From Melioribacteraceae bacterium (lineage in GTDB: Bacteria; Bacteroidota; Ignavibacteria; Ignavibacteriales; Melioribacteraceae), in assembly GCA_027013735.1 (NCBI GenBank), contig JALWGH010000117.1, forward strand, positions 1 through 43,292: a stretch of 43,292 nucleotides of DNA, written 5' to 3'. Below the pieces are notes generated by a model. That model saw nothing but the letters and a program-made list of their open reading frames with translations. It was not told the DNA's origin and ran no database searches. The position numbers and the translations under genes are program-made. Below are positions 1 through 18,781 of this stretch, in pieces (the first letter of the stretch is position 1; each line of letters starts with the position of its first letter).

Positions 1-1018
1 GAAAAATTCTTGGAGCGAAAAGCCGTGGGCGCCGAATGTTCCTTGGAGGAATTATCTTTCCGAAAAGAATAAGAAAATTGCAGCTGCAAATAAGAAGCGA
101 ATTCACAAGGCGGTTGCGGAATCCTTTGAAAGCGTTGATGTTAACGATTACGCTTACATCGATGGCAAGGTGGCGAAAAAATCAATTGCGGATTTGAAGA
201 AGCTGAAAAAAACCGGCAAGCCTTTCTTTTTGGCGGTTGGTTTTAGAAAGCCACATTTGCCCTACAATCATCCTAAAAAATATTGGGATATGTACGAAGG
301 GAAAAATATTCCGCCGGCGGACAACCCTTACCCGCCTAAAGACGCTCCGGCGGTTTCGATTCACAATTCCTTTGAACTTAGGGTTTACACGGATATTCTG
401 GACACGGGGAAAATTCCCGACTCCAAAGCCAAACAGTTAAAACGAGCTTATTACGCTTGCGTTACTTACGTGGACAAGCTGATCGGAGAGGTAATCGATT
501 CGCTAAAAAGTCTCGGGCTTTACGACAACACAATTATTGTTCTAATCGGAGACCACGGCTACCAGTTGGGCGAGCATACGATGTGGACAAAACACAGCAA
601 CTACGAGCTTTCGCTGAGGGCGCCAATGTTGTTCCGCGTGCCGGGAATGAAGAAAAATGCAGTGGTTAAAAGTTTGGCGGAATTTGTGGATATTTACCCC
701 ACGCTTTGCGAGTTGACCGGACTCAAGATTCCCAAGACCGTTGAGGGCAAAAGTTTTGCTCCGCTTTTAACCGGAGAGAAAAACAAAATTACCGAGGCGG
801 TCTTTAGTCGGTTTAAAGATGGCGAGTCCGTTAGAACAGAGCGTTACCTTTACACAGAATACCGGGACAAGAACGAAAAACTTTACGCAAAAATGCTTTA
901 CGACCACCAAAAAGATCCGGAAGAAAATGTTAATGTGGTTAACCGTCCCGAGTACAAAAAAGTTGTTTCCAAATTGGCGAAATTGTTAGAAGAACAGAGA
1001 AAGAGATTTTATCGTTAA
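1..1018 (+). CDS. Sulfatase, iduronate-2-sulfatase-like (5' partial)
   Basis: The reading frame is open from the left edge (codons begin at base 2) and gives 338 residues up to the TAA. A GTG at 170 could be taken as a start, but the frame continues upstream with sulfatase-like sequence, so this is the C-terminal two thirds of a truncated gene. Visible family marks are the 'FFLAVGFRKPHLPY' block, 'GDHGYQLGEH' (metal and substrate site of S1 sulfatases), 'WTKHSNYE' and 'EFVDIYPTLCELTGL'. These match the iduronate-2-sulfatase-like group and closely resemble the sulfatases at 4,659 and 8,050. The C-x-P-x-R active-site motif lies outside the window. It would hydrolyse a sulfate ester on a polysaccharide, probably in the periplasm or outside the cell. 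It is the first visible gene of the sulfatase/glycosidase run. The family call is firm; the substrate is unknown. Confidence 0.9.
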   Translation, partial: KNSWSEKPWAPNVPWRNYLSEKNKKIAAANKKRIHKAVAESFESVDVNDYAYIDGKVAKKSIADLKKLKKTGKPFFLAVGFRKPHLPYNHPKKYWDMYEGKNIPPADNPYPPKDAPAVSIHNSFELRVYTDILDTGKIPDSKAKQLKRAYYACVTYVDKLIGEVIDSLKSLGLYDNTIIVLIGDHGYQLGEHTMWTKHSNYELSLRAPMLFRVPGMKKNAVVKSLAEFVDIYPTLCELTGLKIPKTVEGKSFAPLLTGEKNKITEAVFSRFKDGESVRTERYLYTEYRDKNEKLYAKMLYDHQKDPEENVNVVNRPEYKKVVSKLAKLLEEQRKRFYR

Positions 1019-1072
1019 GTTGTACCCGGGAATTAATGTAAAATGAAGTACTTAAAAATGTTTGAGGCACAG

Positions 1073-3136
1073 ATGAAATTAAAAACGATTTTCTTGGTTT
1101 TCTTTGCTCTTAGCTTTTTGGCATTCGGGCAAAATAATATTTTGCTAAACCCCGATTTTGAAAACGGGAGCGAAAATTGGAATGCTAAAAATTGCGACAT
1201 CACTGTTGTGGACACTATTTCACAATCAGGTTTGAAATCGTTGTTGATTTCGAACAGGAAGAAAACCTTCAGCGGTGCTTACCAAGTTATTACCGACAGC
1301 TTAAAATACAACGGTTACGGTAAGTACGTTGTCCAAGGATATTTCAGAACGGAAAGCGGCGAGGACACCGCTAAAATTAAAATCCGTTTGACTATTGACG
1401 GAGAAAAGAAAAACATTGTTGCCAAGGCTTACGTAAACGACAAAGATTGGAGCGAGATTAAAGACACTCTTACCCTTGATTGGCAGGGAGGCGATTTAAC
1501 CGAAGGCTCGATTTTCTTACAAACTCAAAATAATCTTTCGCTTAATTATTTTGCCGACAATCTTTCGCTTGTCCCTTACGACGTAAGCGGCGGAATAAAA
1601 GACTCAACCGGCGGTGGCGGGGACACGCTCGACGCTCCCATTGCACCTCGGGATTATGCGCAAGCATTAGGAAAAGGTTTTGACGTAAACTGGACAAAAA
1701 CCGCTTCGCAGGCTTCCTATTACAGCGTGGAGCTTTTGAAGCAAATTAAAGCAAAGGGTTTCAGGCATATCCGGCTCAGAACAAATTCTGAATCTCCCAC
1801 TGATTTTATTACTCTTTCCGCTCCGATTGTGAAAGACTGTCTGGATAACGGGATGTTCCCGATTCTTGCCTTTGGCGGGCAGATGCTGGAGGAGAAGCCG
1901 GACTCTACTAACATTGCTAATTTCGTAAAATGGTGGCAGACGGTAGCGGAATATTACAAAAATTACAGTCACAGAGTAACGTTCGATTTGCTTATTGAAA
2001 TTTCCGGCGAGCTTAAAGAAGAGCCGGAAACGTTAAACGAGATTTACGAGAAAACCGTCTCGGCAATCAGGGAAAGCAATCCTACTCGAATAATTATTCT
2101 TAGTCCGCGCGATTTGTCCAATCCTTTCAATTTGCACGAGCTTAAAATTCCGAGTAAAGCAAATGGTTATTTGATGTGGGAATGGCATTTTTACGCTGCG
2201 GGTCCGAGCAAAACGAACCAGAAAAAGCTGTGGACAACAGGCACGCCGGCGGAAAGAAAATTAATTACGGACAAAATAGATTCAGCCCTTGCGTGGGAAA
2301 AACGAACGGGTTTTCCTTCGTGGGTTGGCGCTTGGATGCCCGGGAATTACAACGGTGCAAATGAGTACACCGTACCGGAACAAACCGTATTTGCTTCTTT
2401 CTTAGCGCGGGAGCTCGACAAAGCAAATGTTCCTTGGGCTTTGAACGCAATTCAGCATTTCAATAATTATTTGGATGGTTCTCTTGAATGGAATCAGGAA
2501 CGCCGTCCGGTTTTAGACGCCGTTTTGAAACCGACGGAAGTTGCTTTTTACGGAGATTCAAATTACGGCGGAACGTCGGTGAGGTTAAAGCCCGGGGAAT
2601 ACGACAAGGGAGTGCTAGACACTCTTGGTTTGATTGGGAATGTTAAGTCGGTAATGGTGCCGGCGGATTTCAAAGTGCATTTTTACGAAGGCGAGAATTT
2701 TGACGGTAACGAGAAAGTTGTTAGTATGACTAACCCGGACGTATTTAGTCAGCCTTTTAATTTCCAATCCGTTAAAATTGAATTTGATTCTACTTTCACC
2801 GATGTTAAAGAAAACGGATTGGTGAAAAATATTCCGAGCAAGTTTGAACTGTTTCAAAATTATCCTAATCCGTTTTCCGCCAATGGCGGGCCGAGCGGAG
2901 CGATAACAACGATAAGGTATTTGGTCCCTGTTGTAGGGACAGCTCATGAGCTGTCCCTACGTCTGACCATTTACGACATTTTAGGTCGTAAGGTTGCAAC
3001 GCTTGTTAACGAAAAACAAACGCCGGGGAATTATTCCGTGCAATTTAACGCAAGCAATTTACCCAGCGGAATTTATTTCTACAGATTGCAAGCTGACGGA
3101 TTTTCCAAAACGATGAAAATGATTTTACTTAAATAA
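1073..3136 (+). CDS. Secreted GH5-like protein with CBM, beta/gamma-crystallin domain and T9SS tail
   Basis: The ATG at 1,073 is preferred over 1,043 because GAGG lies 5 bases upstream and the protein then begins directly with a signal peptide (MKLKTIFLVFFALSFLAFGQ). The 687 residues read: signal peptide; a CBM4/9-like jelly-roll module (about 20-168, 'LNPDFENGSENWN'); a GH5-like TIM barrel (about 190-480, with 'MWEWHFYAAGP'); a beta/gamma-crystallin Greek-key domain (about 488-570, 'VAFYGDSNYGG', 'FYEGENFDG'); and a T9SS C-terminal sorting domain (about 590-687). Where typical GH5 enzymes have the nucleophile (GEF), this protein reads 'VGAWMPG'. The usual NEP acid/base motif is replaced by 'LIEISGEL'. 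It may be a divergent enzyme or a glycan-binding protein. A palindromic repeat lies in frame in the sorting domain at 2,933-2,960. Confidence 0.8.
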   Translation: MKLKTIFLVFFALSFLAFGQNNILLNPDFENGSENWNAKNCDITVVDTISQSGLKSLLISNRKKTFSGAYQVITDSLKYNGYGKYVVQGYFRTESGEDTAKIKIRLTIDGEKKNIVAKAYVNDKDWSEIKDTLTLDWQGGDLTEGSIFLQTQNNLSLNYFADNLSLVPYDVSGGIKDSTGGGGDTLDAPIAPRDYAQALGKGFDVNWTKTASQASYYSVELLKQIKAKGFRHIRLRTNSESPTDFITLSAPIVKDCLDNGMFPILAFGGQMLEEKPDSTNIANFVKWWQTVAEYYKNYSHRVTFDLLIEISGELKEEPETLNEIYEKTVSAIRESNPTRIIILSPRDLSNPFNLHELKIPSKANGYLMWEWHFYAAGPSKTNQKKLWTTGTPAERKLITDKIDSALAWEKRTGFPSWVGAWMPGNYNGANEYTVPEQTVFASFLARELDKANVPWALNAIQHFNNYLDGSLEWNQERRPVLDAVLKPTEVAFYGDSNYGGTSVRLKPGEYDKGVLDTLGLIGNVKSVMVPADFKVHFYEGENFDGNEKVVSMTNPDVFSQPFNFQSVKIEFDSTFTDVKENGLVKNIPSKFELFQNYPNPFSANGGPSGAITTIRYLVPVVGTAHELSLRLTIYDILGRKVATLVNEKQTPGNYSVQFNASNLPSGIYFYRLQADGFSKTMKMILLK
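2933..2960. repeat. In-frame palindromic element, copy 1
   Basis: This is a perfect 28-bp palindrome: arm GTAGGGACAGCTCA followed directly by its reverse complement. It lies in the sorting-domain coding region of the GH5-like gene and is read in frame as VGTAHELSLR. Copies occur at the matching place and in the same frame at 7,835 and 40,294. Confidence 0.9.
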
Positions 3137-3174
3137 GTTCAAAATTTGAATTGTTCAATTTTTGGAGAAAAATA

Positions 3175-4620
3175 ATGAGCAGATTAAAAAATATTTTCGG
3201 AGTCTCTTTAATTGTTTTTCTGATTTTCGCCTTTGCTTCTTTCGGGCAAAAGAAAATGAATGTTGTTTTCATTTTAATTGATGACTTGGGCTGGAAAGAC
3301 CTTTCGTGTCAAGGTTCTCAGGTTTACGAAACGCCCAACATCGACAAGTTAGCCGAAACCGGAATGAGATTCGAGCAGGCATACACGGCGCATCCCCGTT
3401 GTGCTCCGGCAAGGTACGCATTTATTACAGGCAGGTATCCGGCAAGGGTTCATTTGCCGGGAGATTGGAAATGGGACGGCACGGAATACACAATGGCGCA
3501 AGCATTCCACGACGCCGGTTACAAAACTTTCTTTGCAGGTAAATGGCACATTGCCAAAGGGGATGTTTTCCCTCAGGATGTCGGTTTTGACATTAACATT
3601 GCAGGCGGATATGCAGGCGCTCCGGGAACGTATTTTTATCCTTACCACAAAGGAAAAAAGTTAAAAAAGAAAGACATTCACGGCTTGGAGAACGGCAAGA
3701 AGGGAGAATATTTGCCAGACAGGCTAACCGACGAAACGATTAAATTTATTAAAGCTAACAAAGACAAGCATTTCTTGGTTTACCTCTCTCACTATTCCGT
3801 TCACACGCCGTTCGAGGCGAAAGAAAAGTACATTAAGTATTACAAAGAAAAAATCAAACACATTAAATTTAAGGGACCTGAATTTATTCCCGAAGGAACC
3901 GGTTACACAAAGTGCTGGCAGAACAATCCGATTTATGCGGCAATGATTCAAAGTGTGGACGAGAGCGTCGGCAGAATAATGAAAACGCTCGACGAGCTAC
4001 ACCTTTCGGACAAAACCATTGTTGTTTTTACTTCCGACCACGGGGGACTTTCCAATAAGGGCTACAACTACAGACCTCTTGCAACTTCCAATTTGCCTTT
4101 GAGAGCAGGCAAGGGACACAGTTACGAAGGCGGGCTTAGAATCCCCTTTATTATTAAGTGGCCCGGCGTAACTGTTCCGGGAAGCAAAACCAATTACCCG
4201 ATTATCGGAATGGACATTTACCCGACTTTAGTTGAAGCCGCGGGAATTAAATGGAAAAAACATCCTAAGATTGACGGAGTTAGTTTTGTGCCGGCTATTA
4301 AGGGCGAAGTAAAGGAGAACAAGTCAAGATATTTCTTCTGGCACTCGCCGCTTGCAAGACCTTACAGCACAGGCGACATTAACGTTTCCACAGTAAGGCA
4401 CGGGGATTACAAACTGCTCGATTTCTACGACGCACGCCGGAAAGAGCTTTACAACATTGCGAAAGATTTGGGCGAGCACAATGATTTGTTCAACCAAAAA
4501 CCGCAAATAGCTTCACAGCTTTACAAAGCCCTTGTTCGTTGGCGTAAGGACGTGCACGCTTATTTTGACAAATCCAAAATAAGAGAAAAGTGGAAACAGA
4601 AAAAACACAATAAAGAATAA
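3175..4620 (+). CDS. Secreted arylsulfatase-type S1 sulfatase
   Basis: The start is taken as the ATG at 3,175, preceded by TTTGGAGAAAAATA. A TTG at 3,151 is in frame but has no ribosome site. The 481-residue protein has a signal peptide (MSRLKNIFGVSLIVFLIFAF...), then 'NVVFILIDDLGWKDLSCQG' with the metal-binding Asp pair. The formylglycine motif is C-A-P-A-R with Cys76, followed by 'ITGRYPAR'. 'FAGKWHIAKG' and 'FTSDHGG' complete the S1 sulfatase signature. The Cys must be oxidised to formylglycine for activity, and no maturase gene is visible here. The gene follows the GH5-like gene by 38 bases and precedes another sulfatase by 38 bases, so co-transcription is likely. The exact sulfate position attacked cannot be read from sequence. 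Confidence 0.93.
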   Translation: MSRLKNIFGVSLIVFLIFAFASFGQKKMNVVFILIDDLGWKDLSCQGSQVYETPNIDKLAETGMRFEQAYTAHPRCAPARYAFITGRYPARVHLPGDWKWDGTEYTMAQAFHDAGYKTFFAGKWHIAKGDVFPQDVGFDINIAGGYAGAPGTYFYPYHKGKKLKKKDIHGLENGKKGEYLPDRLTDETIKFIKANKDKHFLVYLSHYSVHTPFEAKEKYIKYYKEKIKHIKFKGPEFIPEGTGYTKCWQNNPIYAAMIQSVDESVGRIMKTLDELHLSDKTIVVFTSDHGGLSNKGYNYRPLATSNLPLRAGKGHSYEGGLRIPFIIKWPGVTVPGSKTNYPIIGMDIYPTLVEAAGIKWKKHPKIDGVSFVPAIKGEVKENKSRYFFWHSPLARPYSTGDINVSTVRHGDYKLLDFYDARRKELYNIAKDLGEHNDLFNQKPQIASQLYKALVRWRKDVHAYFDKSKIREKWKQKKHNKE

Positions 4621-4658
4621 GAATTAAATTTTTAATTAAAGAAGGAAGCGGACAAATT

Positions 4659-6122
4659 ATGAACCTACTAAAAAAATCTTTGTTTTTAATTGCTCTGGCA
4701 AGCCTTATTTTAATGGGCTGCAAGCCAAAAGCTGAAGAGACGCAGCAAAAAAAGATGAACGTTCTCTTCATCGCTGTGGACGATCTTAAACCTCTCTTAG
4801 GTTGTTACGGGGACACAATTGTAGTTTCACCGAACATTGACAAACTTGGGGAAGAAGGCACGGTTTTCTTGAATAACCACACTCAGCAGGCTGTTTGCGC
4901 TCCTTCCAGAGCAAGTTTGCTGACAGGCTGGCGCCCGGACAGAACGGAGGTGTGGAATTTACACACTTTGATTCGCGATAAAAATCCGAACGTTGTAACT
5001 CTGCCGCAATATTTCAAACAAAACGGTTACCAAACCGCCGCAAGAGGAAAGGTTTTCGATTTGCGTTCCGTTGATAAGTTCCACGATAAACGCTCGTGGA
5101 CTTACCCGTACGAGTATCCCACGAAAAGCCGTTGGATTGGGACGAAGGAAAGATTGTTCGCGCAATGCGTGGATTTACCGGACTCCGATTTCATCGACGG
5201 AAACATTGAAGAACAAAGCGTTAAACTCTTGGAGAAGATGGCAAAAAGCAAAAAGCCGTTTTTCTTAGCCGTGGGCTTTAAGAAACCGCATCTGCCTTTT
5301 GTAGCTCCCAAGAAATGTTGGGATTTGTACGACAGGAGCAAATTGCCGTTGGCAAAGTTCAGGAAGCACGCAAAGAACGCGCCGGAATTTGCTTTCCAGC
5401 CCGGTTGGGAACTGCGCCACGGTTACGACCACGTGCCTCAAAAAGGTCCGTTGCCGATACCAATGCAAAAAGAGTTAATTCACGGCTACTACGCTTGCGT
5501 TTCTCACGTGGATGAGCAAATTGGGAAATTGCTGAAAAAACTTGACGAATTGGGCTTAAAAGACAATACGATTATTGTCCTTTGGGGTGATCACGGATGG
5601 CATTTGGGCGACCATCTTATGTGGTGCAAACACACTAATTTTGAACAGGCTACTCGTTCACCCTTGATTATTGTTGACCCGAGAATAAAAGGGGGAAAGA
5701 AAGCAAGCTCACCGACGGAATTCGTGGACGTTTTTCCAACTTTGTGCGAGCTTACGGGGCTTAAAGTCCCAAGCGGTTTGGACGGTAAAAGTTTGGTCCC
5801 GATTCTTAAAAATCCGAAGGTAAAAATAAAAGATTACGCCGTTAGTCAATTCCACAGGATTGCTTACGGCAAGCGGGTGGAAGGTTACACACTCAGGACT
5901 GACCATTACAGATACACCGTTTGGGTGCCTCTTAAAGTTCGTAAAGGAGCTAAGTTCAAAGAATCCGAAATTGTGGCAGCGGAACTTTACGATTACGTAA
6001 AAGACCCGTTGGAAACAGTTAATCATTTTAACGAACCGGCGTACAAAAAAATTCAGGCAAGACTGCAACAATATATGCGGGAGTATTTCAAAAATCGGAA
6101 AATAAATAAGAAAGAAAAATGA
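4659..6122 (+). CDS. Lipoprotein sulfatase, iduronate-2-sulfatase-like
   Basis: The 487-residue product begins with a lipoprotein signal (lipobox LMGC, Cys21), so it is probably anchored in a membrane, unlike its soluble neighbours. The S1 sulfatase core follows: 'NVLFIAVDDLKPLLGCYGD', C-A-P-S-R with Cys80 as formylglycine precursor, 'LLTGWRPDRT', 'FFLAVGFKKPHLPF', 'WGDHGWHLGDH', 'WCKHTNFEQATR' and 'EFVDVFPTLCELTGL'. It resembles iduronate-2-sulfatases and is closely similar to the first gene and to the gene at 8,050, suggesting local duplication. A GAAGGAAG ribosome site precedes the ATG. Its stop codon overlaps the next start by 4 bases (ATGA), which points to translational coupling with the GH10 gene. 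Confidence 0.93.
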   Translation: MNLLKKSLFLIALASLILMGCKPKAEETQQKKMNVLFIAVDDLKPLLGCYGDTIVVSPNIDKLGEEGTVFLNNHTQQAVCAPSRASLLTGWRPDRTEVWNLHTLIRDKNPNVVTLPQYFKQNGYQTAARGKVFDLRSVDKFHDKRSWTYPYEYPTKSRWIGTKERLFAQCVDLPDSDFIDGNIEEQSVKLLEKMAKSKKPFFLAVGFKKPHLPFVAPKKCWDLYDRSKLPLAKFRKHAKNAPEFAFQPGWELRHGYDHVPQKGPLPIPMQKELIHGYYACVSHVDEQIGKLLKKLDELGLKDNTIIVLWGDHGWHLGDHLMWCKHTNFEQATRSPLIIVDPRIKGGKKASSPTEFVDVFPTLCELTGLKVPSGLDGKSLVPILKNPKVKIKDYAVSQFHRIAYGKRVEGYTLRTDHYRYTVWVPLKVRKGAKFKESEIVAAELYDYVKDPLETVNHFNEPAYKKIQARLQQYMREYFKNRKINKKEK

Positions 6123-8038
6123 AACGAGTATTAAAAATAATTTTTCTGACGTTTGTTTTTACGTCAGCATCTTTAGCTCAAACAAACTTAGTTACTAACC
6201 CCGGATTTGAAGACAGCGTTAACATCGGTTGGCGACTGAACGCTTGGGGCGGAGCTGCAGGAAGATTATTTAACGAAACGGGAGACAACGTAATTTCGGG
6301 AAATATTTCCGCCAAAGTAATTGTGGACACAACGGGGGACAAGGTTGAAAAAGTATCCTTAATGACGGACACTATTAAGAACGTTCCCGACGGCGAGCTT
6401 ATTTTAACAGTTCTCGCAAGAACGGAAACAAAAGAAAATTTACCTTTCAAACTTTCGCTTAAATGTGTAAGTGAGGACGGACAAAGAAAATGGTACGGTG
6501 GCGAGCAAATTCTTCTTTCCACTACGCCTCAAAAAGTTACTTTCATTGTTTCGCCCGATTCAAAATACAGGGCAAACATTTTTGTGAGGCTTTCTTGCGG
6601 CTTGGAAAAAGGGACTTACATTTTTGACGATGTCTTTTTCGGAAAGAATGAAGACGTTCATCCGCCCGTGCCGGAAGGAAGAAGGTTGAGGGAAATTGTT
6701 GCGGACAAGTACCCTGAAGGCAACGTTTACATCGGCGGAGCTTCGCAAAGCGCTTATTGGGGAACGTTTTCGGAAGAGATTCTTAACAGGGAGTTTAGTT
6801 ACATTACTCCCGCTAACGATTTCAAGCAAACGTACGTTCATCCCGAGCCGGGTGTCTTTCGCTGGGCAACTCCCGACGGCTGGGTGCAAAAGGCAAAAGC
6901 TAACGGACAAGTTATTAGAATGCATTCTCCGATTGGTCCACAATGTTCCAAATGGGCAAAGGAAGATTCAAGAACTCCCGAAGAACTCTCCCAAAATTTA
7001 ACCGAGTACGTTACAGCCCTTTGCCAGCATTACAACAACGAGTCTAATATTTTGTGGATGGATGTGGTAAACGAAACGATTGACGCTAATACCGGCGAGT
7101 GGAAAGGTCCAAAACCCGGCACGGATTCGTGGGAAAATCCTTGGACGATTATTGGTTTCGACACCACTTACTCCGAGACGTTCCAACCGCCTCTCTACAT
7201 TAAAATGGCTTTTGAACTTGCAAACAAGTACGCTCCGAACATTAAACAAATAATTAATCAGCACGGCTCGATGAACGACGCTGCTTGGGACAAGGTTAAA
7301 AAGTTAGTAACTTATTTGCGCGATAATGGTTTGAGAGTTGACGGCATTGGATTTCAAGCTCACGTGGACGCAGGTTGGGAAAAGGAAAATAACGACAGCG
7401 GAGTAAATAACCTGACGGCTCTCGGCAATTTAATTGAGTGGGCGCATTCGCATAATTTGGAATTTCACATAACTGAGAATAATGTTTACTTAAGAGGTGA
7501 AAACGTTGGCGATTGGGAAAAACAAGCCGAGACGTTTAGAGCGATTCTTTCCACGGTTTTGGCTCACAGAAGCACCGGTGTGGTAACTTGGAACACTTGG
7601 ATGATTAGAGACTCCGACGGTAAGGCAAGCGATAGGACTCCCACGCTCTTTTTTGCCGACGGAAGTCCCAAACCGGCTTATTACGCCGTTCAAGATGTTT
7701 TGGAAAATCCGGTAAGCGTGAATGAGTCTTCGGACAAAATTCCAACAAGGTTTGTCTTGGAACAAAATTACCCGAATCCTTTCTCCGCCGGTGGCGGGGC
7801 AACGACTACAATTAAATATTCAATTCCTTCCATTGTAGGGACAGCTCATGAGCTGTCCCTACAGTTAACCGTTTACGATGTGTTGGGTCGTAAAATTGCA
7901 ACGCTTGTAAACGGCTACAAAGCACCGGGGAATTACCAAATAACATTTAACGCAAAAAACTTACCGAGCGGTACTTATTTTTACCGCTTAAAAGCCGGCG
8001 ACTTTTCGGTAACGAAAAAAATGATTTTACTTAAGTAA
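6119..8038 (+). CDS. Secreted GH10 endo-xylanase-type enzyme with CBM and T9SS tail
   Basis: The 639-residue protein has a signal peptide (1-20), a CBM4/9-like module (about 21-180, 'LVTNPGFEDS', 'YIFDDVFF'), a GH10 barrel (about 190-545) and a T9SS sorting domain (about 560-639, 'NYPNPFSAGGG', 'KKMILLK'). Catalytic residues are recognisable: acid/base Glu319 in 'DVVNET' and nucleophile Glu453 in 'HITENN', with 'TPANDFKQTYVHPEPGVFRW' as the usual GH10 N-terminal block. The family hydrolyses internal beta-1,4-xylosidic bonds, so the cluster may target a xylan-containing sulfated glycan; this substrate is inferred. It starts inside the stop codon of the preceding sulfatase gene. The sorting domain carries a palindromic repeat copy at 7,835. 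Confidence 0.93.
   Translation: MKRVLKIIFLTFVFTSASLAQTNLVTNPGFEDSVNIGWRLNAWGGAAGRLFNETGDNVISGNISAKVIVDTTGDKVEKVSLMTDTIKNVPDGELILTVLARTETKENLPFKLSLKCVSEDGQRKWYGGEQILLSTTPQKVTFIVSPDSKYRANIFVRLSCGLEKGTYIFDDVFFGKNEDVHPPVPEGRRLREIVADKYPEGNVYIGGASQSAYWGTFSEEILNREFSYITPANDFKQTYVHPEPGVFRWATPDGWVQKAKANGQVIRMHSPIGPQCSKWAKEDSRTPEELSQNLTEYVTALCQHYNNESNILWMDVVNETIDANTGEWKGPKPGTDSWENPWTIIGFDTTYSETFQPPLYIKMAFELANKYAPNIKQIINQHGSMNDAAWDKVKKLVTYLRDNGLRVDGIGFQAHVDAGWEKENNDSGVNNLTALGNLIEWAHSHNLEFHITENNVYLRGENVGDWEKQAETFRAILSTVLAHRSTGVVTWNTWMIRDSDGKASDRTPTLFFADGSPKPAYYAVQDVLENPVSVNESSDKIPTRFVLEQNYPNPFSAGGGATTTIKYSIPSIVGTAHELSLQLTVYDVLGRKIATLVNGYKAPGNYQITFNAKNLPSGTYFYRLKAGDFSVTKKMILLK
7835..7862. repeat. In-frame palindromic element, copy 2
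   Basis: The 28-bp sequence is identical to copy 1 and extends to a 30-bp palindrome (7,834-7,863) because flanking T and A also pair. It sits in the sorting-domain region of the GH10 gene and reads VGTAHELSLQ, the same frame as the other copies. Confidence 0.9.
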
Positions 8039-8049
8039 TGGGATAAGAA

Positions 8050-10251: not shown

Positions 10252-10277
10252 ACAAGCCCCTCTTATTATTTTAGGAA

Positions 10278-10294
10278 AGCAGTCGAACACTGCT
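10278..10294. repeat. Short hairpin in the only large gap of the cluster
   Basis: AGCAGT and ACTGCT form a 6-bp stem around CGAAC in the 64-base gap between the sulfatase-CBM gene and the DUF4380-like gene. There is no T-tract, so it is not a typical terminator. It may be an RNA processing or regulatory hairpin, or part of another palindromic repeat. Confidence 0.4.
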
Positions 10295-10315
10295 ACATAA
10301 AAATCCCACCAATCT

Positions 10316-11398
10316 ATGAGTTCGAAAAAAGTAAAAAAGTTGTCTCTAATTTTTTTGTCCCTTTTTCCAATCGCAATTTTGGTTTATCCGCATTTTTTTA
10401 ACGGGGAAACAGAAATGAATTTTGCCAAAACTTCCGGCGGTAATATTATTACACTTAGGAATGACCATTCGACCCTGAAAATACTGCCCGATCTCGGTGC
10501 GGCGGTTGTTTCGTTCAATAAAGACGGCGGGAAAAACATTCTTAAAACCGACACTTCTGTTTGGAATCACAAATTTAACAAACCGGTTGACAAATTGTTG
10601 ATGAACGAGTTACTGCCTATTTACGGGCACACTGTTTGGCTTGGTCCGCAAAGCCGTTGGTGGAGTGTACAAAACGAGTATCCCGATTTGAAAAATAAAA
10701 ATGTTCACTGGCCTCCCGATCCTTATTGGATTTACGGAAAGTACGAAATACTAAAACGAACGAAGGACGAAGCGATTTTAATTAGCCCCGTTAGTAAATT
10801 TACCGGAATGCGATTCGTAAAAAAGATTAGAATCTCGGACGAAGGGAAAGCTCTCTTTGAAGTTGAAGCGGAAAATTGCAGAAAGGAAAATTTTAAATGG
10901 GATTTGTGGTTAAACACTCGGCTCGACGGCTACAGCCGGGTTTTCGTTCCGGTAACAAGCGAAAAAAACGTTCGAGTGAAGTACCGCGACAATGTGCATT
11001 TCGACAAAATGCCGTTCAAAGTTGAGGAGGGATTTTTCCGTTTTGAAACAAGGAAGCCTTCTCGGGGCAAAGAGAAGATTGACGGCAAGGCATTTATTTA
11101 TCCCGCTTACGGAAAGATGTTTGCGTTTGCGGATTCGCAAATGTTTGTAATACATTTCAAACTTTTCCTCGTCTCGGGCATTCATCCCGAGCAAGGGTTA
11201 GTGGAAATTTACAACAGCGTCTCAAAAGACGGAAATGCTTTGGCTGAATTGGAATATCATACGCCTTACCAAACTATTCGTCCGGGCGGTAAAATAAAAT
11301 CGTCCGAAGAATGGGAAATAATAAATTACAGAAACGGCGACAGCGTTGAAGAACAGATTGAGTTTATTAATTATTACAATAAATTGAACGAAAGGTAA
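10316..11398 (+). CDS. DUF4380-like (galactose-mutarotase-fold) protein
   Basis: The 360-residue protein has an N-terminal hydrophobic segment (about 9-27) that is a signal peptide or anchor. The rest is a beta-rich domain with 'LKILPDLGAAVVSFNKDGGKN', 'GHTVWLGPQ', 'WPPDPYWIYG', 'KKIRISDEGKALFEVEAE' and 'LWLNTRLDG'. These patterns resemble the DUF4380 / aldose-1-epimerase-like fold. Such proteins sit near glycoside hydrolases, but their reaction is not established. It is on the same strand and 17 bases from the next sulfatase, so it belongs to the same unit. No clear ribosome site precedes the ATG. The function may be handling or sensing of a released sugar; this is inference from context. 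Confidence 0.65.
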   Translation: MSSKKVKKLSLIFLSLFPIAILVYPHFFNGETEMNFAKTSGGNIITLRNDHSTLKILPDLGAAVVSFNKDGGKNILKTDTSVWNHKFNKPVDKLLMNELLPIYGHTVWLGPQSRWWSVQNEYPDLKNKNVHWPPDPYWIYGKYEILKRTKDEAILISPVSKFTGMRFVKKIRISDEGKALFEVEAENCRKENFKWDLWLNTRLDGYSRVFVPVTSEKNVRVKYRDNVHFDKMPFKVEEGFFRFETRKPSRGKEKIDGKAFIYPAYGKMFAFADSQMFVIHFKLFLVSGIHPEQGLVEIYNSVSKDGNALAELEYHTPYQTIRPGGKIKSSEEWEIINYRNGDSVEEQIEFINYYNKLNER

Positions 11399-11415
11399 TT
11401 TAAGGAAAAAAGAAA

Positions 11416-13248
11416 ATGCGGCTCTTAGTTAAAACATTTGTGTTGGCTTTGTTTGTTTTTTCATCCGTTTTGTTCGGTCAAAAAAAAGGAAATGCAAGAC
11501 CGAATATTTTGTGGGTTGTTAGCGAGGACAACACCACGCTACTCGGCTGTTACGGAGACCCCAACGGTCGCACGCCGAACTTGGACAAATTGGCTTCCGA
11601 AGGCATTCAGTACAACAACGCTTTTGCCAACGCTCCGGTTTGCGCTCCGGCGCGCTACACGATTATTACCGGTACGTACGCAAGCTCCTACGGCACAATA
11701 AATATGAGAAGCAAGTTGCCCATTCCGGACAGCGTAAAATTTTTTCCGAGCTTACTACGCAAAGCCGGCTATTACGTGGCAAATAATCACAAGGAAGATT
11801 ACAACACCGTTTACGATTCAAAAGAGATTTGGGACGAATCAAGTCCGAAAGCCACGTGGGAAAAGAGGAAGCCGGGACAACCGTTTTTTGCCGTCTTTAA
11901 TTTTAACATTACGCACGAGCACGTTTTATTCAAAAGCGATTCAATTACAAAAACGGACCCGGCAAAAGTTTCTTTAATGCCTTATCACCCGGACACAAAA
12001 ACTTTCCGGCACGATTACGCGCAGTATTACGACAGAGTTTCTCAAATGGACAAACAGATCGGTAATTTGCTTAAGAAACTTAAAGATCAAGGTTTGTACG
12101 AGAGCACAATTATTTTTTACTACGGAGACAACGGCGGAATTTTACCCGGCAGTAAGAGATTCCTGAACGAACCGGGCACGCACGTGCCGATGATTGTAAG
12201 AATACCGGAAAAGTTTAAATACCTTTTCGACGAAAAGCGCGGGACAAAAAGCAATCGTTTGGTGAGTTTTGTCGATCTTGCTCCAACGGTTTTGAGTTTG
12301 TGCGGCGTGAAAATTCCTTCGTACATGCAAGGCAAAGCTTTTCTCGGAGCTCAAAAAGCCCCGCCGAAAAAATACGTTTTTATGTACAAGCAAAGAATGG
12401 ACGAAAGATTTGATTTCGTAAGAGCAGTGCGGAGCGAACGCTTTCGCTACGTTCGTAATTTTATGCCTTTCCTACCGCGCGGGCAGCACATCGAATATCT
12501 GTGGCGGATTCCCTCAATGCAAGAATGGTACGCGCTTTACAAAGCAGGAAAGTTAAACAAGATGCAGTCGGGGTTTTTTAAGCCTAGCCCTTGCGAAGAA
12601 TTGTACGATTTACAAAGCGACCCGAATGGCGTGATTAACGTTGCACAAGATCCAAAGTACTCTAAAGCGCTTAAGGAAATGAGAAAAGCTCTTTACGGTT
12701 GGATGATTAAAACAAGGGATGCCGGTTTCATTCCCGAAGCGGAGGTGGTGCGGATTGCTCAAAAGACAACCCCGAGAGAATTTACGAAAAGTAAAATTTA
12801 CGATGTTGAAAAATTTCTTGCTGAAACAGATGCTCTAAACGGTTGCAATGGAAACACTCCGGATGAAATTAAAAAATTGTTAAGGAGTAAAAATTTCATC
12901 GAGCGGTATTGGGCATTGGTTGGTGCTCTTACTATTAAAGAAAAAGTACTCCCCTTGAAAAATGAAATTAAAACTTTGCTGACCGATTCTTACCCGAGCG
13001 TGAGAATTTTAGCAGCCGAAGTTTCTTTTAAACTCGGAGAAAAAAAAGAAGCTGTGGCGGTTTTGAAAAAATCACTTGAGAGTCCGGAAGAAACGGTTAG
13101 ATTAACCGCAGTTAATTCCGTTGAAAGATTAGGCAAAGGAGCAGAGCTTTTCAAAACGGAGTTGAACAATTTGTTAAACGATCCTTACCGTAATGTAGTC
13201 AAAGTTGCTAAATGGACTTTGCTGAAATTGAAAAAAGAACAAAAATAA
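11416..13248 (+). CDS. Sulfatase with C-terminal HEAT-like repeats, heparan-N-sulfatase-like
   Basis: The 610-residue product has a signal peptide (about 1-21), then an S1 sulfatase domain: 'PNILWVVSEDNTTLLGCYGD', formylglycine motif C-A-P-A-R at Cys76, 'IITGTYASSYGT', 'FYYGDNGG' and 'HVPMIVRIPEK'. The 'SEDN' variant of the metal site and the overall order resemble the N-sulfoglucosamine sulfohydrolase group. About residues 500-610 form an alpha-helical tail with repeated 'LL.D.YPSVRILAAEVSFKLG' and 'LNDPYRNVVKVAKWTLLKL' units, consistent with HEAT-like repeats. AAGGAAAAA precedes the ATG. It lies between the DUF4380-like gene and the GH3 gene with short gaps, so it is in the operon. The N-sulfatase assignment is only by resemblance. 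Confidence 0.9.
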   Translation: MRLLVKTFVLALFVFSSVLFGQKKGNARPNILWVVSEDNTTLLGCYGDPNGRTPNLDKLASEGIQYNNAFANAPVCAPARYTIITGTYASSYGTINMRSKLPIPDSVKFFPSLLRKAGYYVANNHKEDYNTVYDSKEIWDESSPKATWEKRKPGQPFFAVFNFNITHEHVLFKSDSITKTDPAKVSLMPYHPDTKTFRHDYAQYYDRVSQMDKQIGNLLKKLKDQGLYESTIIFYYGDNGGILPGSKRFLNEPGTHVPMIVRIPEKFKYLFDEKRGTKSNRLVSFVDLAPTVLSLCGVKIPSYMQGKAFLGAQKAPPKKYVFMYKQRMDERFDFVRAVRSERFRYVRNFMPFLPRGQHIEYLWRIPSMQEWYALYKAGKLNKMQSGFFKPSPCEELYDLQSDPNGVINVAQDPKYSKALKEMRKALYGWMIKTRDAGFIPEAEVVRIAQKTTPREFTKSKIYDVEKFLAETDALNGCNGNTPDEIKKLLRSKNFIERYWALVGALTIKEKVLPLKNEIKTLLTDSYPSVRILAAEVSFKLGEKKEAVAVLKKSLESPEETVRLTAVNSVERLGKGAELFKTELNNLLNDPYRNVVKVAKWTLLKLKKEQK

Positions 13249-13270
13249 TGTTTCTCAGAAAGGAATTTCA

Positions 13271-15556
13271 ATGAGGAAATTTTTGCTAAAGGTTTTTGTT
13301 ATTGCGTTTTTTTTCTCGCTAAGCTTTTACCTCGAAGCTCAAACACCTATTTACAAAAACCCTAAGTTTACAATTAACGAAAGGGTGAAAGACCTTTTGA
13401 GCAGAATGACGCTGGAGGAAAAGATTGGGCAGATGTGTCAGTTTGTCGGACCCAATCACATTAAGCAGGCGCGCAAGGAAAAGGGCAAGGACAAAAACGT
13501 TGACGCGTGGGGAATGTATCCGGGGCTCTCGATTGCCGATTTGGAAAGAATGGTTACGAAGGGAGAGATTGGCTCTTTTCTCCACGTTACCACGGCGGAA
13601 GAAACAAATCACATTCAAAAGTTAGCAATGCAAAGCCGGTTGCAGATTCCGGTTCTTTTTGGCGACGACGCAATTCACGGTGTTGGATTAACAAAGGGAG
13701 CAACGGTTTACCCCGTTCCCATTTCGATTGCCGCTTCGTTTGACACTGCGCTGGCAAGACGGATTGCAGCGGAAACGGCGGAAGAGCTTTATTCCATTGG
13801 GGTTCGCTGGACTTTTGCCCCGAACGTGGACGTAGCCCGGGATGCGCGCTGGGGACGAGTCGGAGAAACCTTTGGTGAAGACCCGCTGCTCGTTTCCAAA
13901 ATGGGAGTCGGTTTTGTTAAGGGATTTCAGAACGGTAAGCACAAAGTTTTAGCTTGTGCCAAACATCTTGTTGCAGGAGGTGAGCCGATTAATGGAATCA
14001 ACGGTGCTCCTACGGATATTTCCGAAAGAACGTTGCGCGAAATATTTTTCCCTTCTTTCAAAGCCGCAGCGGAAGCGGGAGTGGCTACCGTAATGGCAGC
14101 ACACAACGAGTTGAACGGCATCCCGTGCCATTCAAACAAATGGCTGTTCGATTTGCTGCGTAAGGATTTCGGTTTTAAAGGATTTGTTGTTAGCGACTGG
14201 ATGGACATCGAGCGTATTTACACGAGGCACAAAGCGGCAAGCAGTCTTGAGGGAGCCGCTATGCTTGCGGTAAATGCGGGCATCGATATGCACATGCACG
14301 GACCAAAATTTTTTGATTGGGTTCTACACTTAGTTAAGACCGGTAAAATTTCGCAAGAGAGAATAGACAAAGCCGTAGAAAGAATTTTAAGAGCGAAATT
14401 CGAATTGGGACTTTTTGAAAATCCTTTTGTTGATGTTAATTCTCAGAAAAAAATTCTTTTCAGTGCAAAGCACAGGCAAACCGCACTGAAAGCTGCTCGC
14501 GAGTCGATTGTGCTGTTGAAAAACAACGGAATGCTTCCTCTCGACAAATCGAAATACGAAAAGATTTTAATTACGGGACCGAACGCCGATAATCAAACAA
14601 TATTGGGCGATTGGGCGGTTCGTCAGCCCGGCGCAAATGTTGTTACCGTAGCGGAAGGGCTTAAGAAATTTTTAAGAAACAAGGTGAAGTATTTCGATTG
14701 CGGGAATAGCGTTAAGCACATTGAGAAATCGAAAATAACGAAAGCGAAAGAGCTGGCTAAAAAATCGGATTTGGTGATTCTTGTTCTTGGGGAAAATCCT
14801 TTGCGTTATTTACCTAATGAAAAAACCGACGGCGAGAACGTTGACAGAAGTAAGATTGATTTACCCGGCAATCAACTTGAATTGGTAAAAGAGATTCACA
14901 AAACAGGCAAGCCGATTATTGTGATTTTAATTAACGGGCGCCCGCTGGGGGTGGAATGGATTTCGAAAAATGTTTCGGCGTTAATTGAAGCCTTTGAACC
15001 GGGAGCGCTCGGCGGTTTGGGTCTGGCTGAAATTCTACTTGGTAAAGTTAACCCGAGCGGAAAGTTACCGATTACAATTCCGCGTAGTGTGGGGCAGATT
15101 GTTAACGTTTACAATCACAAGCCCTCGCAGTTTGTGCGCGGTTACGTGGATGCAAATTACAAACCGCTCTACGAATTCGGCTACGGGCTCAGCTACACGA
15201 AATTTAAGTTTGAAAATCTAAAGATTGTTCCGCGCTCAATAAACAAAGGCGATTCGGCGAAAGTTTCGGTTTGGGTTTACAATACCGGAGACCGTGCCGG
15301 AGCGGAGGTGGTTCAACTTTATGTGCGCGACGATTTTTCTTCGGTTACCCGCCCGGTAAAAGAGTTAAAGGGATTTGAGAGAATTTTTCTGAAGCCGGGT
15401 GAAAAGAAACGCATTGAGTTTTTAATTACGCCTGACGATCTTTCTTTTTACAATGCGGAAATGAAACACGTAGTTGAACCCGGGACGTTTACAATAATGG
15501 TTGGAAATTCTTCGAGAGATCAAGATTTAATTAAAACAAAACTTTCAGTTAAATAA
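13271..15556 (+). CDS. bglX: GH3 beta-glycosidase, BglX-like
   Basis: The 761-residue protein has a signal peptide (about 1-23), 'RVKDLLSRMTLEEKIGQM', and the two-domain GH3 core. The catalytic nucleophile is Asp309 in 'FVVSDWMD', and 'CAKHLVAGGE' gives the substrate-binding KH. 'DARWGRVGETFGEDP' is typical of periplasmic beta-glucosidases such as BglX. The second domain ('SIVLLKNNGMLPLDK', 'PLYEFGYGLSYTKF') is followed by a fibronectin-III-like domain (about 650-761). Length and order fit full-length GH3 enzymes. It would release terminal sugars (glucose or xylose) from oligosaccharides made by the GH10 or GH5-like proteins. It follows the sulfatase by 22 bases, with an AAAGGAA ribosome site. 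Specificity between glucosidase and xylosidase cannot be settled. Confidence 0.9.
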   Translation: MRKFLLKVFVIAFFFSLSFYLEAQTPIYKNPKFTINERVKDLLSRMTLEEKIGQMCQFVGPNHIKQARKEKGKDKNVDAWGMYPGLSIADLERMVTKGEIGSFLHVTTAEETNHIQKLAMQSRLQIPVLFGDDAIHGVGLTKGATVYPVPISIAASFDTALARRIAAETAEELYSIGVRWTFAPNVDVARDARWGRVGETFGEDPLLVSKMGVGFVKGFQNGKHKVLACAKHLVAGGEPINGINGAPTDISERTLREIFFPSFKAAAEAGVATVMAAHNELNGIPCHSNKWLFDLLRKDFGFKGFVVSDWMDIERIYTRHKAASSLEGAAMLAVNAGIDMHMHGPKFFDWVLHLVKTGKISQERIDKAVERILRAKFELGLFENPFVDVNSQKKILFSAKHRQTALKAARESIVLLKNNGMLPLDKSKYEKILITGPNADNQTILGDWAVRQPGANVVTVAEGLKKFLRNKVKYFDCGNSVKHIEKSKITKAKELAKKSDLVILVLGENPLRYLPNEKTDGENVDRSKIDLPGNQLELVKEIHKTGKPIIVILINGRPLGVEWISKNVSALIEAFEPGALGGLGLAEILLGKVNPSGKLPITIPRSVGQIVNVYNHKPSQFVRGYVDANYKPLYEFGYGLSYTKFKFENLKIVPRSINKGDSAKVSVWVYNTGDRAGAEVVQLYVRDDFSSVTRPVKELKGFERIFLKPGEKKRIEFLITPDDLSFYNAEMKHVVEPGTFTIMVGNSSRDQDLIKTKLSVK

Positions 15557-15573
15557 TTAGCGGAGTATTTAAA

Positions 15574-17091
15574 ATGAACAAAAAATATTTAAACATTTTT
15601 GCTCTTATTGCGGTCGGAATAATGGCTGTTGCCATTTCCGGTTTTGTGATTCTTTCTCACGACGGAGGTAAAAAAGATTCACAACAAAGTAAGGTGCAGG
15701 AAAAGAAGAACATCGTTTTTATTTTAAGCGACGATCACCGTTACGACGCAGTGAGTTTTATGCACTTTAATTCTTTTTTGAAAACTCCCAATCTCGATAA
15801 AATGGCTACCGAGGGAGTGAATTTCAAAAATGCTTTTGTTTCAACATCTCTTTGTTCGCCGAGTCGTGCAACAATACTAACGGGAATGTACGCGCACCAG
15901 CACGGGGTTGTGGACAATATGTCCCCCGTTCGAAGTAATCTTACTTACTTCCCGCAATATTTGCAAAAGCTCGGTTACGAAACAGCCTTCATCGGCAAGT
16001 GGCACATGGGAGAAATGAAAGGGGACGCAAGTCCGCGAAAAGGTTTTGACAAATGGATTAGCTTCAAAGGGCAGGGCGTTTACTACAATCCCGAATTTAA
16101 CATTGACGGAAAGAAAGTAAAGAGGAAAGGTTACATTACGGACATCCTGACGGATTACGCTATTAACTGGATTAACAAAAAAAGGGACAAACCGTTTTTC
16201 CTTTATCTTTCCCACAAAGCTATTCACGCTTTATTCCGCCCCGCAAGGCAGGATTCCAACAAATTTGAAAATGAAAAAGTGCCTCATCCTGCAAGCATGG
16301 CGGACACTCCCGAAAATTACAAAGGCAAACCACGCTGGGTCAAATTGCAAAGGAACAGTTGGCACGGAGTTGACTATATGTACTACGGCGAGTACGATTT
16401 CGATTCTTTTTACAAAAGATATTGTGAAACATTGTTGAGCTTGGACAGAAACATCGGCAGATTGTTAGACGACATTAAGAAGAAGGGACTGGAGAAAAAT
16501 ACAATTATTTTCTACATGGGCGATAACGGGTTTGTCTTTGGCGAGCACGGTTTAATAGACAAACGCCACATGTACGAAGAATCAATTAGAGTTCCTTTGT
16601 TTGCCTATGCGCCGGGATTGATTAAACCAAGAGTTGTTACACAAATGATTCAGAACATTGATATTGCTCCCACCATTCTGGACATTGCCGGAATTAAGAA
16701 GATGCCGAAGCAAATGGTTGGAATGTCCTTCTACCCGTTGATGAAAGGTGAACCCGTTAAATGGCGGAAGGAAATTTTTTACGAATATTATTGGGAAAGA
16801 GCTTTCCCGCAAACCCCCACGACTTTCGGCGTAAGAACGGACAGGTACAAATACATCTTTTACCACGGCGTTTGGGACACAAACGAGTTGTACGATCTTC
16901 AAAACGACCCGCACGAAATGCACAATCTTATTAACGATAAGAAATACGCCGGTTTGGTAAACAAGTTGGAAGACGATTTGTTTAATTGGCTTGATTCTAC
17001 AAAGGGAATGTACATCCCCTTGCGCCGAGGTCCTGACTACATTAAGAACAAACGCGGTCCAAAGAAAGAGTGCAAATTTCTTTACCCGTAA
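15574..17091 (+). CDS. Membrane-anchored or exported S1 sulfatase, last gene of the cluster
   Basis: The 505-residue protein has an N-terminal hydrophobic segment (about 7-28) without a clear lipobox. The S1 sulfatase core follows: 'NIVFILSDDHRYDAVSF', formylglycine motif C-S-P-S-R at Cys94, 'ILTGMYAHQHGV', 'FIGKWHMG', 'FYMGDNGFVFGEHG' and 'ELYDLQNDPHEMHNLI'. The 'MYAHQHGV.DN' block resembles N-acetylglucosamine-6-sulfatase and related S1 groups, so its specificity should differ from the iduronate-type paralogues upstream. It starts 17 bases after the GH3 stop, with CGGAG before the ATG. A strong terminator 72 bases downstream closes the unit. Confidence 0.92.
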   Translation: MNKKYLNIFALIAVGIMAVAISGFVILSHDGGKKDSQQSKVQEKKNIVFILSDDHRYDAVSFMHFNSFLKTPNLDKMATEGVNFKNAFVSTSLCSPSRATILTGMYAHQHGVVDNMSPVRSNLTYFPQYLQKLGYETAFIGKWHMGEMKGDASPRKGFDKWISFKGQGVYYNPEFNIDGKKVKRKGYITDILTDYAINWINKKRDKPFFLYLSHKAIHALFRPARQDSNKFENEKVPHPASMADTPENYKGKPRWVKLQRNSWHGVDYMYYGEYDFDSFYKRYCETLLSLDRNIGRLLDDIKKKGLEKNTIIFYMGDNGFVFGEHGLIDKRHMYEESIRVPLFAYAPGLIKPRVVTQMIQNIDIAPTILDIAGIKKMPKQMVGMSFYPLMKGEPVKWRKEIFYEYYWERAFPQTPTTFGVRTDRYKYIFYHGVWDTNELYDLQNDPHEMHNLINDKKYAGLVNKLEDDLFNWLDSTKGMYIPLRRGPDYIKNKRGPKKECKFLYP

Positions 17092-17224: not shown

Positions 17225-18445
17225 TTACCAAATCGGAAGTTTGTTCGGGGAAATGGGGCGCATGTATTCGATGCTTGTCTTGAATGCAGTCCGGGAATAA
17301 CCTCTGGATTCGAAAAGGACGTCGAAGTATTCGGGCATGTAGCCGAATTTTTTCTTCATCATTTCTTCGAGATTGTTCAAGTTGTTTTCGTCGAGCATGT
17401 ATTGCGTTGCAACTGAAATGCCCGCCTCGAAGAAAGAAATGAAAAGGTAAATTGTGTTTTTGTTTGGTCCAGGGATTTTTCTGAAAAGACAATAGTCGAT
17501 GTGCTCAAGTCCGGGTTCGCCGGATTGTCTGAAAGTAAGCGTTGTGTCTTTTTCGCGAAAACGGATGTACATATTATCAGGGTCGGAGCTGTATTCGGTT
17601 AGTGTGTCTCTCAACAAATATCGCAAGAAATGTAAACTTCTGAAAGAGCCGAGAAAAATAATGTCGTTCTCCAGCAAATCCGTAGCGGAAAGTTCGGACG
17701 AAGCTTTGAGAATAAGTTTGTCTTTGGCTTTAAGAATTTTAACTAAAATGGGAATCGTTGAAATGTCTATTTTGGGAAAGAAGGGGTAAGGGGTTATTCC
17801 GATTATTTTTTTGTCCGGATGTGCCGCTTTGTATTGTTCGAATTCTTCCTTCGTATTGACGTAGTGCTTTCTTACAATTGTTTCCTCGCCGTCGAGGATT
17901 TCGAGAAAGAATAAGTCGTTGCCCAAAACTATTAGCTTGGGATTTGGTGATTCGGTAATGTTCAACCAGACGGGGTTGTTGACAATATCTGAGGAAGTAG
18001 ATTTCAAAATAGAAAGTTTAATGGAAGAGTAAAATGCAATGCCTGCCAATAGAACCACCAGCCCAACAAGCGACCAGACAATTTTTTTGTTGTACATTCC
18101 CATTACTTTTCTAACTTTTGACGTAGCCGGCACAAATTCGAGTTTGTAATGTCCTTTCGGGATTTTTATTCTGTACTTGTCTTCTTTTCCTTCGTTAGCG
18201 TAGAAATGGTCGAGTTTTTTTCTGAGGTTGCTGGCGTAAACACGGACGGACGAGTCCTCTGCCGGGTTGAAATCCGTGCCTTTGTTAAAAACGTTGATTG
18301 CAATGGTTATTTCTTTCGGGTCTTCGTTTCGCAGGGAAGCTTCGAATAAGTAGGTGAGCAACTTTTTGTAAGTGTCCGAAGATTTGAATCCCTCGGATTC
18401 GAGAATGTTTTCTAATATTTTTCTTTTAGCCTCTTCGGAAAGCAT
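17225..18445 (-). CDS. Membrane-anchored winged-helix (ToxR-like) regulator
   Basis: The 406-residue protein has an N-terminal cytoplasmic domain (about 1-110) with 'ILESEGFKSSDTYKKLLTYL' and 'SSVRVYASNLRKKLDHFY ... YRIKIPKGHYKLEF'. This follows the layout of the OmpR/PhoB-type winged helix ('R..Y...LRKKL', then a hairpin ending in 'KG.Y.LEF') seen in many one-component membrane regulators. One transmembrane helix follows (about 120-143, 'VWSLVGLVVLLAGIAFY'). The 260-residue C-terminal part, probably periplasmic, matches no family I recognise. It is convergent with the sulfatase cluster and may sense a breakdown product and control it; this is inferred from position. A candidate promoter lies just upstream (18,471-18,502). 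Confidence 0.75.
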   Translation of the reverse strand: MLSEEAKRKILENILESEGFKSSDTYKKLLTYLFEASLRNEDPKEITIAINVFNKGTDFNPAEDSSVRVYASNLRKKLDHFYANEGKEDKYRIKIPKGHYKLEFVPATSKVRKVMGMYNKKIVWSLVGLVVLLAGIAFYSSIKLSILKSTSSDIVNNPVWLNITESPNPKLIVLGNDLFFLEILDGEETIVRKHYVNTKEEFEQYKAAHPDKKIIGITPYPFFPKIDISTIPILVKILKAKDKLILKASSELSATDLLENDIIFLGSFRSLHFLRYLLRDTLTEYSSDPDNMYIRFREKDTTLTFRQSGEPGLEHIDYCLFRKIPGPNKNTIYLFISFFEAGISVATQYMLDENNLNNLEEMMKKKFGYMPEYFDVLFESRGYSRTAFKTSIEYMRPISPNKLPIW

Positions 18446-18470
18446 TTTTAATCTTAGTTTTTTAAGTTTC

Positions 18471-18502
18471 TTAATTTAATCATTTCTGCCGTATTTCACA
18501 AA
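18471..18502 (-). promoter_or_regulatory. Candidate promoter of the membrane regulator
   Basis: On the - strand, TTTG (18,502-18,499) is followed after 20 bases by TAAATTAA (18,478-18,471). This is a partial match to the Bacteroidetes TTTG / TAnnTTTG promoter and ends 26 bases before the ATG. AT-rich sequence makes chance matches common. Confidence 0.28.
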
Positions 18503-18581
18503 GAAAGAGCACGGTGACACAAGTTTAAATTTGGTGGCAAAAGATTTCTTGATGATTTTCTCATCTGACTTTTTGTTGTTT

Positions 18582-18615
18582 TTGTCATTTGCTCCGCCGC
18601 TGGCGGAGCGTCATT
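18582..18615. repeat. GTCATT-flanked hairpin, copy A
   Basis: GTCATT precedes and follows an 8-bp stem GCTCCGCC / GGCGGAGC with a 3-base loop. A second copy with the same plan is at 23,051-23,086 in direct orientation. Confidence 0.6.
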
Positions 18616-18775: not shown

Positions 18776-18781
18776 TACAAC

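Follow-up and report, generated by a model that had tools for sequence, protein, structure and literature searches.

Polysaccharide utilisation loci of Bacteroidota are recognised via the susCD pair, as described in PMC5698469, and one survey states that susCD was 'scarcely detected' in the CAZyme clusters of Ignavibacteriales (PMC10576277). A TonB-dependent receptor (TBDT) with another kind of lid is reported for the vitamin B12 importers BtuB-BtuG, in which the lid is a beta-propeller of a fold unrelated to SusD (PMC10404256). For the alginate lyase BcAlyPL6, the C-terminal domain is reported to position the substrate and to have weak lyase activity, with most of the affinity in the other domain (PMC8618178).

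Here we describe a sulfatase-rich locus of a Melioribacteraceae bacterium (Ignavibacteria; Ignavibacteriota) in which a TBDT that is not of the SusC type is followed by a T9SS-tailed beta-helix protein. Such an unusual importer partner may explain the use of complex sugars by bacteria without the usual importers. Our literature search found no title or abstract opening that described a TBDT/beta-helix pair, and it found nothing on Ignavibacteria sulfatases in polysaccharide utilization.

Gene content of the window

The window (the whole stretch of DNA analysed, 43,292 bp) is the entire contig C117 of a 3.12-Mb genome (G000; 356 contigs, 97.7% complete), and its left end falls within a truncated sulfatase gene. 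We found ten genes at positions 2-17091, all on the + strand and separated by intergenic gaps of -4 to 64 bp:

2-1018, + strand: sulfatase, C-terminal part, iduronate-2-sulfatase-like (PF00884 and SGSH_C)
1043-3136, + strand: CBM4_9, GH5 and T9SS type A tail (Pfam; TIGR04183)
3151-4620, + strand: sulfatase, S1_16-like, motif CAPAR (PF00884)
4659-6122, + strand: sulfatase, iduronate-2-sulfatase-like, lipobox LMGC, motif CAPSR (PF00884)
6119-8038, + strand: GH10 with N-terminal extension and T9SS tail (PF00331, 146.5 bits)
8050-10251, + strand: sulfatase, iduronate-2-sulfatase-like, with CBM4_9 and T9SS tail, motif CGPSR (Pfam; TIGR04183)
10316-11398, + strand: DUF4380 protein (PF14315, 240 bits)
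11416-13248, + strand: sulfatase, S1_8-like, with C-terminal HEAT-like repeats, motif CAPAR (PF00884; HEAT matches weak)
13271-15556, + strand: GH3, beta-xylosidase/beta-glucosidase-like (Pfam; every NCBIfam match under its cut-off)
15574-17091, + strand: sulfatase, GlcNAc-6-sulfatase (5g2v/7p24)-like, motif CSPSR, final gene of the cluster (PF00884)

In the Pfam scan, PF00884 matched six of the ten ORFs, the edge-truncated one included, so the six-sulfatase cluster described by the first-pass annotation stands for the window; Pfam also confirmed the GH5-like, GH10, GH3 and DUF4380 genes that it had listed. At least four sulfatase types are present, as it had proposed (iduronate-2-sulfatase/6hhm-like, S1_16-like, S1_8-like with HEAT repeats and GlcNAc-6-sulfatase-like), the S1 subfamily labels being those of the nearest solved relatives. 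These relatives are 9fo1, a k-carrageenan sulfatase of S1_16, for 3151-4620 (355 bits); 9bba, of S1_8C, for 11416-13248 (349 bits); and 6hhm (281 bits) and 5fql (246 bits) for 8050-10251, which is 56% identical to the sulfatase at 4659-6122. Among the glycosidases, the GH5 protein is closest to the solved Endoglucanase H (51.6 bits), and the GH10 protein reaches just 77 bits against a solved xylanase; its segments VVNE and ITEN hold what we take to be both expected glutamates. The AlphaFold2 model of the DUF4380 protein is of low quality (pLDDT 44.8).

TIGR04183 sorting domains score above the cut-off in three window proteins, the GH5, the GH10 and the 8050-10251 sulfatase (P0002, P0005 and P0006), in line with the earlier proposal of partial export by the T9SS; P0012, P0014 and P0017, described below or encoded beyond the window, also exceed it. 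No SusC or SusD was found among the scanned window proteins, in agreement with the first reading.

Right after the cluster, genes on the opposite strand (17225-22976, -) encode a cytochrome b, a Rieske protein, a TPR-repeat-containing multihaem c-type cytochrome and a 406-aa protein that matches no Pfam family. A KilA-N domain protein is encoded at 30642-31481 (+); this domain is chiefly associated with phages and with large DNA viruses.

Extension of the cluster beyond the window

Contig C325 (6,555 bp, reversed) shares 146 bp with the start of the window (4 mismatches), and C308 (21,991 bp, reversed) shares 138 bp with C325 (1 mismatch). Both overlaps fall inside a gene, one a sulfatase and the other a GH94, and the halves fit. 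C325 carries the N-terminal part of the cut sulfatase (with CGASR), two further sulfatase genes, one GH9 gene and the C-terminal portion of the GH94. C308 carries the N-terminal part of this GH94, a CE4+GDSL protein with a T9SS tail, a GPH/MFS_2 symporter, a cellobiose phosphorylase, a GH5-like T9SS protein, a GH29, the T9SS beta-helix protein P0012 and the TBDT P0011.

Joined through these overlaps, the cluster would comprise 21 genes on one strand (39,159 bp; gaps within contigs of -17 to 120 bp), with eight sulfatases and two GH94 enzymes. The order is TBDT, T9SS beta-helix, GH29, GH5-like, GH94 (cellobiose phosphorylase), GPH symporter, CE4+GDSL, GH94 (chitobiose-phosphorylase-like), GH9, three sulfatases, GH5, two sulfatases, GH10, sulfatase, DUF4380, sulfatase, GH3 and sulfatase. 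The first GH94 scores 1374 bits to 3qde; the second scores 538 bits to the diacetylchitobiose phosphorylase 8bou vs 320 to cellobiose phosphorylase, as judged from its N-terminal 544 aa only. The symporter scores 409.8 bits for TIGR00792 (cut-off 231). All nine PF00884 matches of the genome, representing eight genes of which one is split across contigs, lie inside the cluster. The probable reading is a complete polysaccharide utilisation locus with the window cluster as its 3' half.

Six was right for the window and incomplete as a total, which is eight across three contigs, because the window is a whole contig starting inside a cut gene. The apparent absence of a transporter and of an uptake route was likewise an artefact of the contig edge: the TBDT, its beta-helix partner and the GPH symporter are on the adjoining contigs. 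Extending leftward also added two GH94, GH9, GH29 and GH5-like enzymes, and revealed neither SusCD homologues nor a dedicated maturase beside the window.

The GC content of the cluster (0.42-0.435 vs 0.40-0.42 elsewhere) differs too little to serve as evidence for a recent acquisition, although the sulfatases and the beta-helix are missing from the two other genomes of the genus (see below). The gene 304 bp upstream of the TBDT gene (C308:16102-19365, -) encodes a T9SS protein of 1,087 aa whose adhesive domain is ice-binding-like.

A TBDT with a beta-helix neighbour

The TBDT P0011 scores 361.8 bits for TIGR01782 (cut-off 310) and 71.8 bits for the SusC/RagA model TIGR04056, far under its cut-off of 368.25. 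The adjoining gene encodes P0012, a parallel beta-helix protein with a T9SS tail and, as judged by eye, a signal peptide; it has no SusD Pfam match, nor any Pfam family match apart from the tail. A SusCD pair just outside the window is thus ruled out by the TBDT type and the beta-helix neighbour. PF07980 (SusD) has a single match in the genome, encoded on C197 beside a true SusC.

For the structure model of P0012 (pLDDT 87.3), the closest fold is that of the C-terminal domain in two-domain PL6 lyases (7dmk_B 426-747; Z 29.3, rmsd 2.5 over 295 residues). PL6 C-terminal domains score Z 29.3, 23.2 and 22.8, other beta-helices 18.8 and below, and single-domain PL6 enzymes 12.2-15.8. A sequence profile of the beta-helix family finds the same PL6 C-terminal domain (E 1.4e-12), and a plain Foldseek search with the P0012 model returned chiefly matches of Ig-like structures to its T9SS tail. 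The family has invariant N and H residues. P0012 matches neither DUF5123 nor DUF4957, each of which is matched by 1 of 32 family members at E 5e-4.

Conservation and pairing in other genomes

In a relative from another genus, Melioribacteraceae bacterium MAG10 (G015), a single contig (JAEINS010000023.1) holds reciprocal best matches of the TBDT, the beta-helix, the GH10, the DUF4380 protein and each of the eight sulfatases. For the window these share 65% (3151-4620), 59% (4659-6122), 54% (GH10), 47% (8050-10251), 47% (DUF4380), 35% (11416-13248) and 33% (15574-17091; 207 bits) identity, and the truncated sulfatase has its top match there at 54-56%. No match at 1e-20 was found in the MAG10 cluster for GH94, GH9, GH5, GH3 or GH29, including the window GH5 and GH3; the cellobiose phosphorylase, the chitobiose-phosphorylase-like GH94, the GH9, two GH5-type enzymes, the GH3, the GH29 and the CE4+GDSL protein are present in the locus studied here and not in that of MAG10, and GH10 is the sole conserved backbone glycosidase. 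MAG10 also has a 1,302-aa ORF with a sulfatase motif plus much other sequence (G015:C26:29752-33660, -).

The beta-helix family occurs in 47 of 112 related genomes, with up to 11 matches each. The other 65 have no match at 1e-10; among them are both other genomes of the genus, which also have no Pfam sulfatases at 1e-25.

One scan of the species-genome collection gave 52 loci with 57 beta-helix genes. Directly behind a P0011-type TBDT stand 43 of the 57; seven lie at a contig edge and seven have another neighbour or none, so that 43 of the 50 with an upstream neighbour in view follow the TBDT. Four of the seven exceptions belong to one tandem array headed by a TBDT. As a control, only 2 of 265 other genes (at least 250 aa, from the 52 loci) directly follow such a TBDT. 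In the 30 best loci of relatives, one per genome and with our genome and MAG10 included, all 30 beta-helix genes follow the TBDT. TIGR01782 matched 16 of 16 aligned TBDTs at 1e-20 (the curated cut-off was checked for P0011).

The two proteins co-diverge: distances within one family correlate with those within the other (r 0.877 for 29 complete pairs), a value reached in 0 of 2000 permutations. Species relatedness contributes to this correlation. The nearest neighbour is the same in both families for 19 of the 29 pairs and differs for 10. Three genomes have two complete pairs each, and these paralogous pairs (35-36% and 20-29% identity) are about as distant as pairs from different phyla.

Beside the pair lie genes for GH88 (5), sulfatase (5), CBM6 (3), GH28 (3) and GH94, GH43, GH9 and GH5 (2 each), counted among 79 genes from 35 of 51 loci with usable downstream genes; the MAG10 locus (L086) was left out deliberately. 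No SusD match was found in the relatives' loci by phmmer with one SusD or among the top 25 Pfam families of the 79 neighbours. We conclude that the TBDT/beta-helix pair, which occurs in more than one phylum, serves as a general module for glycan uptake at the position that SusCD would occupy.

Some family members are arranged differently. On one Cloacimonadota contig (L108:3557-14803) there are five genes of the beta-helix family, of which one follows a TBDT and the other four stand in tandem. Double-length members of about 1,000-1,100 aa occur at L111:8270-11569 and L161:1-2940 (-), and in the genome of the latter (G076) two family matches lie within a single open frame.

Sulfatase maturation

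All eight cluster sulfatases have PF00884 and the Cys-type motif C-x-[PA]-[STA]-R, and 17 ORFs on the MAG10 contig have the Cys-type motif. The anSME model TIGR03942 had no match in our genome at 1e-3, and its best score in MAG10 was 30.6 bits against a cut-off of 349. The catalytic cysteine pair of FGE, at what we take to be its position and with a motif pattern used without a positive-control genome, is absent from both PF03781 proteins of our 97.7% complete genome and from the four in MAG10. This observation refers to C226 and C294 in our genome, and to MAG10.

An anSME exceeds the cut-off in 11 of the 112 relatives, all 11 of which have a PF00884 match. The two genomes richest in PF00884 matches, by counts from which no LtaS-like proteins were removed and for which 18 of 31 sulfatase candidates of MAG10 were scored, are ours and MAG10, and neither has a recognised anSME or an FGE with the cysteine pair. 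Since one relative (G027) holds a fragment of an anSME match, assembly gaps may hide an anSME. Possible explanations for the absent maturase are gaps in our genome, divergence beyond the models, or enzymes that are active unmodified.

A third formylglycine-forming system is suspected in E. coli, according to PMC8379841, and sulfatase-rich genomes without a recognised maturase bear on that question. Activity of the unmodified enzyme is reported for a choline sulfatase (PMC6189696).

Proposed uptake and degradation route

We consider it rather probable that these genes form a complete, SusD-free utilisation locus of 21 genes with a degradation route from surface to cytoplasm. The T9SS-tailed GH10, GH5 and CBM-bearing sulfatase would be exported and open the sulfated polymer at the cell surface, and the beta-helix, exported by the same system, would capture or position oligosaccharides for the non-SusC TBDT, which would import them. 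The other sulfatases, GH3, GH9 and GH29 would finish the oligosaccharides at the membrane or in the periplasm, disaccharides would enter through the GPH symporter, and the two GH94 enzymes, at whose starts we saw no signal peptide by eye, would phosphorolyse them in the cytoplasm. The genes may be co-regulated, and by analogy the beta-helix may play a SusD-like capture or lid role; binding of glycan by it is not assured, because most of the affinity of BcAlyPL6 is outside the homologous domain.

The sulfatase diversity suggests a sulfated, heterogeneous glycan, as the first-pass annotation had reasoned. Cyanobacterial or algal matrix glycans are candidates. On the enzyme content, the likeliest substrate would be a sulfated beta-1,4-linked xylan/glucan-type heteroglycan that carries fucose and acetyl groups and comes from algae or cyanobacteria; because GH10 alone among the backbone glycosidases is conserved in MAG10, the substrates of the two genera may differ and this assignment is weak.

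The three contigs are placed side by side from their overlaps. A standalone sulfatase cluster, with the TBDT in a different locus that has a repeated end in common with it, would account for the overlap mismatches (1 and 4) in an assembly of 356 contigs, yet we regard it as very improbable: each overlap lies within one gene whose halves match one family with the frame continuing, C308 is the only near-identical partner of the C325 end in its own genome, and in MAG10 a single contig holds the TBDT pair together with the orthologues of genes from C325 and from C117. Uptake by a distant SusCD pair, the TBDT and beta-helix having some other role, is unlikely. It has the SusC/SusD pair on C197 in its favour, together with the carrageenan locus of Zobellia, which is reported to be without susCD and to use a distal pair (PMC5698469), but the five proteins scanned on the 10-kb C197 include no CAZyme, and the locus has a TBDT of its own that is conserved with its sulfatases in another genus.

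We give somewhat more weight, although still well short of an even chance, to the beta-helix being a surface polysaccharide lyase or hydrolase while the TBDT acts alone, as proteobacterial TIGR01782 receptors do. P0012 shares its fold with PL6 and other lyases, the invariant N and H residues would suit an enzyme, and the homologous BcAlyPL6 domain is reported to be weakly lyase-active (PMC8618178); the top matches of P0012 are nevertheless the C-terminal domains and not the single-domain PL6 enzymes. Moreover, one family pairs with one TBDT type beside very different enzymes, so an uptake partner fits better than a fixed activity. A broader form of the uptake-partner reading is tentative: the TIGR01782 TBDT and T9SS beta-helix could be a third kind of lidded TonB-dependent importer, replacing SusCD in Ignavibacteriota, Calditrichota, KSB1 and scattered Bacteroidota, together with sulfatases matured without anSME or FGE via the long-suspected third route.

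Comparison with known systems

The conserved pair is a marker for loci that would escape susCD-based searches and a concrete candidate complex. BtuB-BtuG provides the precedent for a lid that is not SusD; its substrate and fold differ, and the complex proposed here is inferred only. The match of P0012 in BcAlyPL6 and AlyGC is the C-terminal domain of these two-domain PL6 alginate lyases; unlike them, P0012 lacks the N-terminal PL6 domain and has a T9SS tail, and its gene is linked to that of a TBDT. The carrageenan regulon of Zobellia galactanivorans is similar in having a sulfatase-bearing locus reported to be without susCD, and differs in that uptake is ascribed to a distal susCD, whereas here a non-SusC TBDT heads the locus (PMC5698469). 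With the SusC/SusD-type loci of Bacteroidota, the locus shares co-directional genes for a TBDT, a surface partner, glycosidases, sulfatases and a symporter; here the TBDT is of the TIGR01782 type instead of SusC, and a T9SS-tailed beta-helix stands in place of the SusD lipoprotein.
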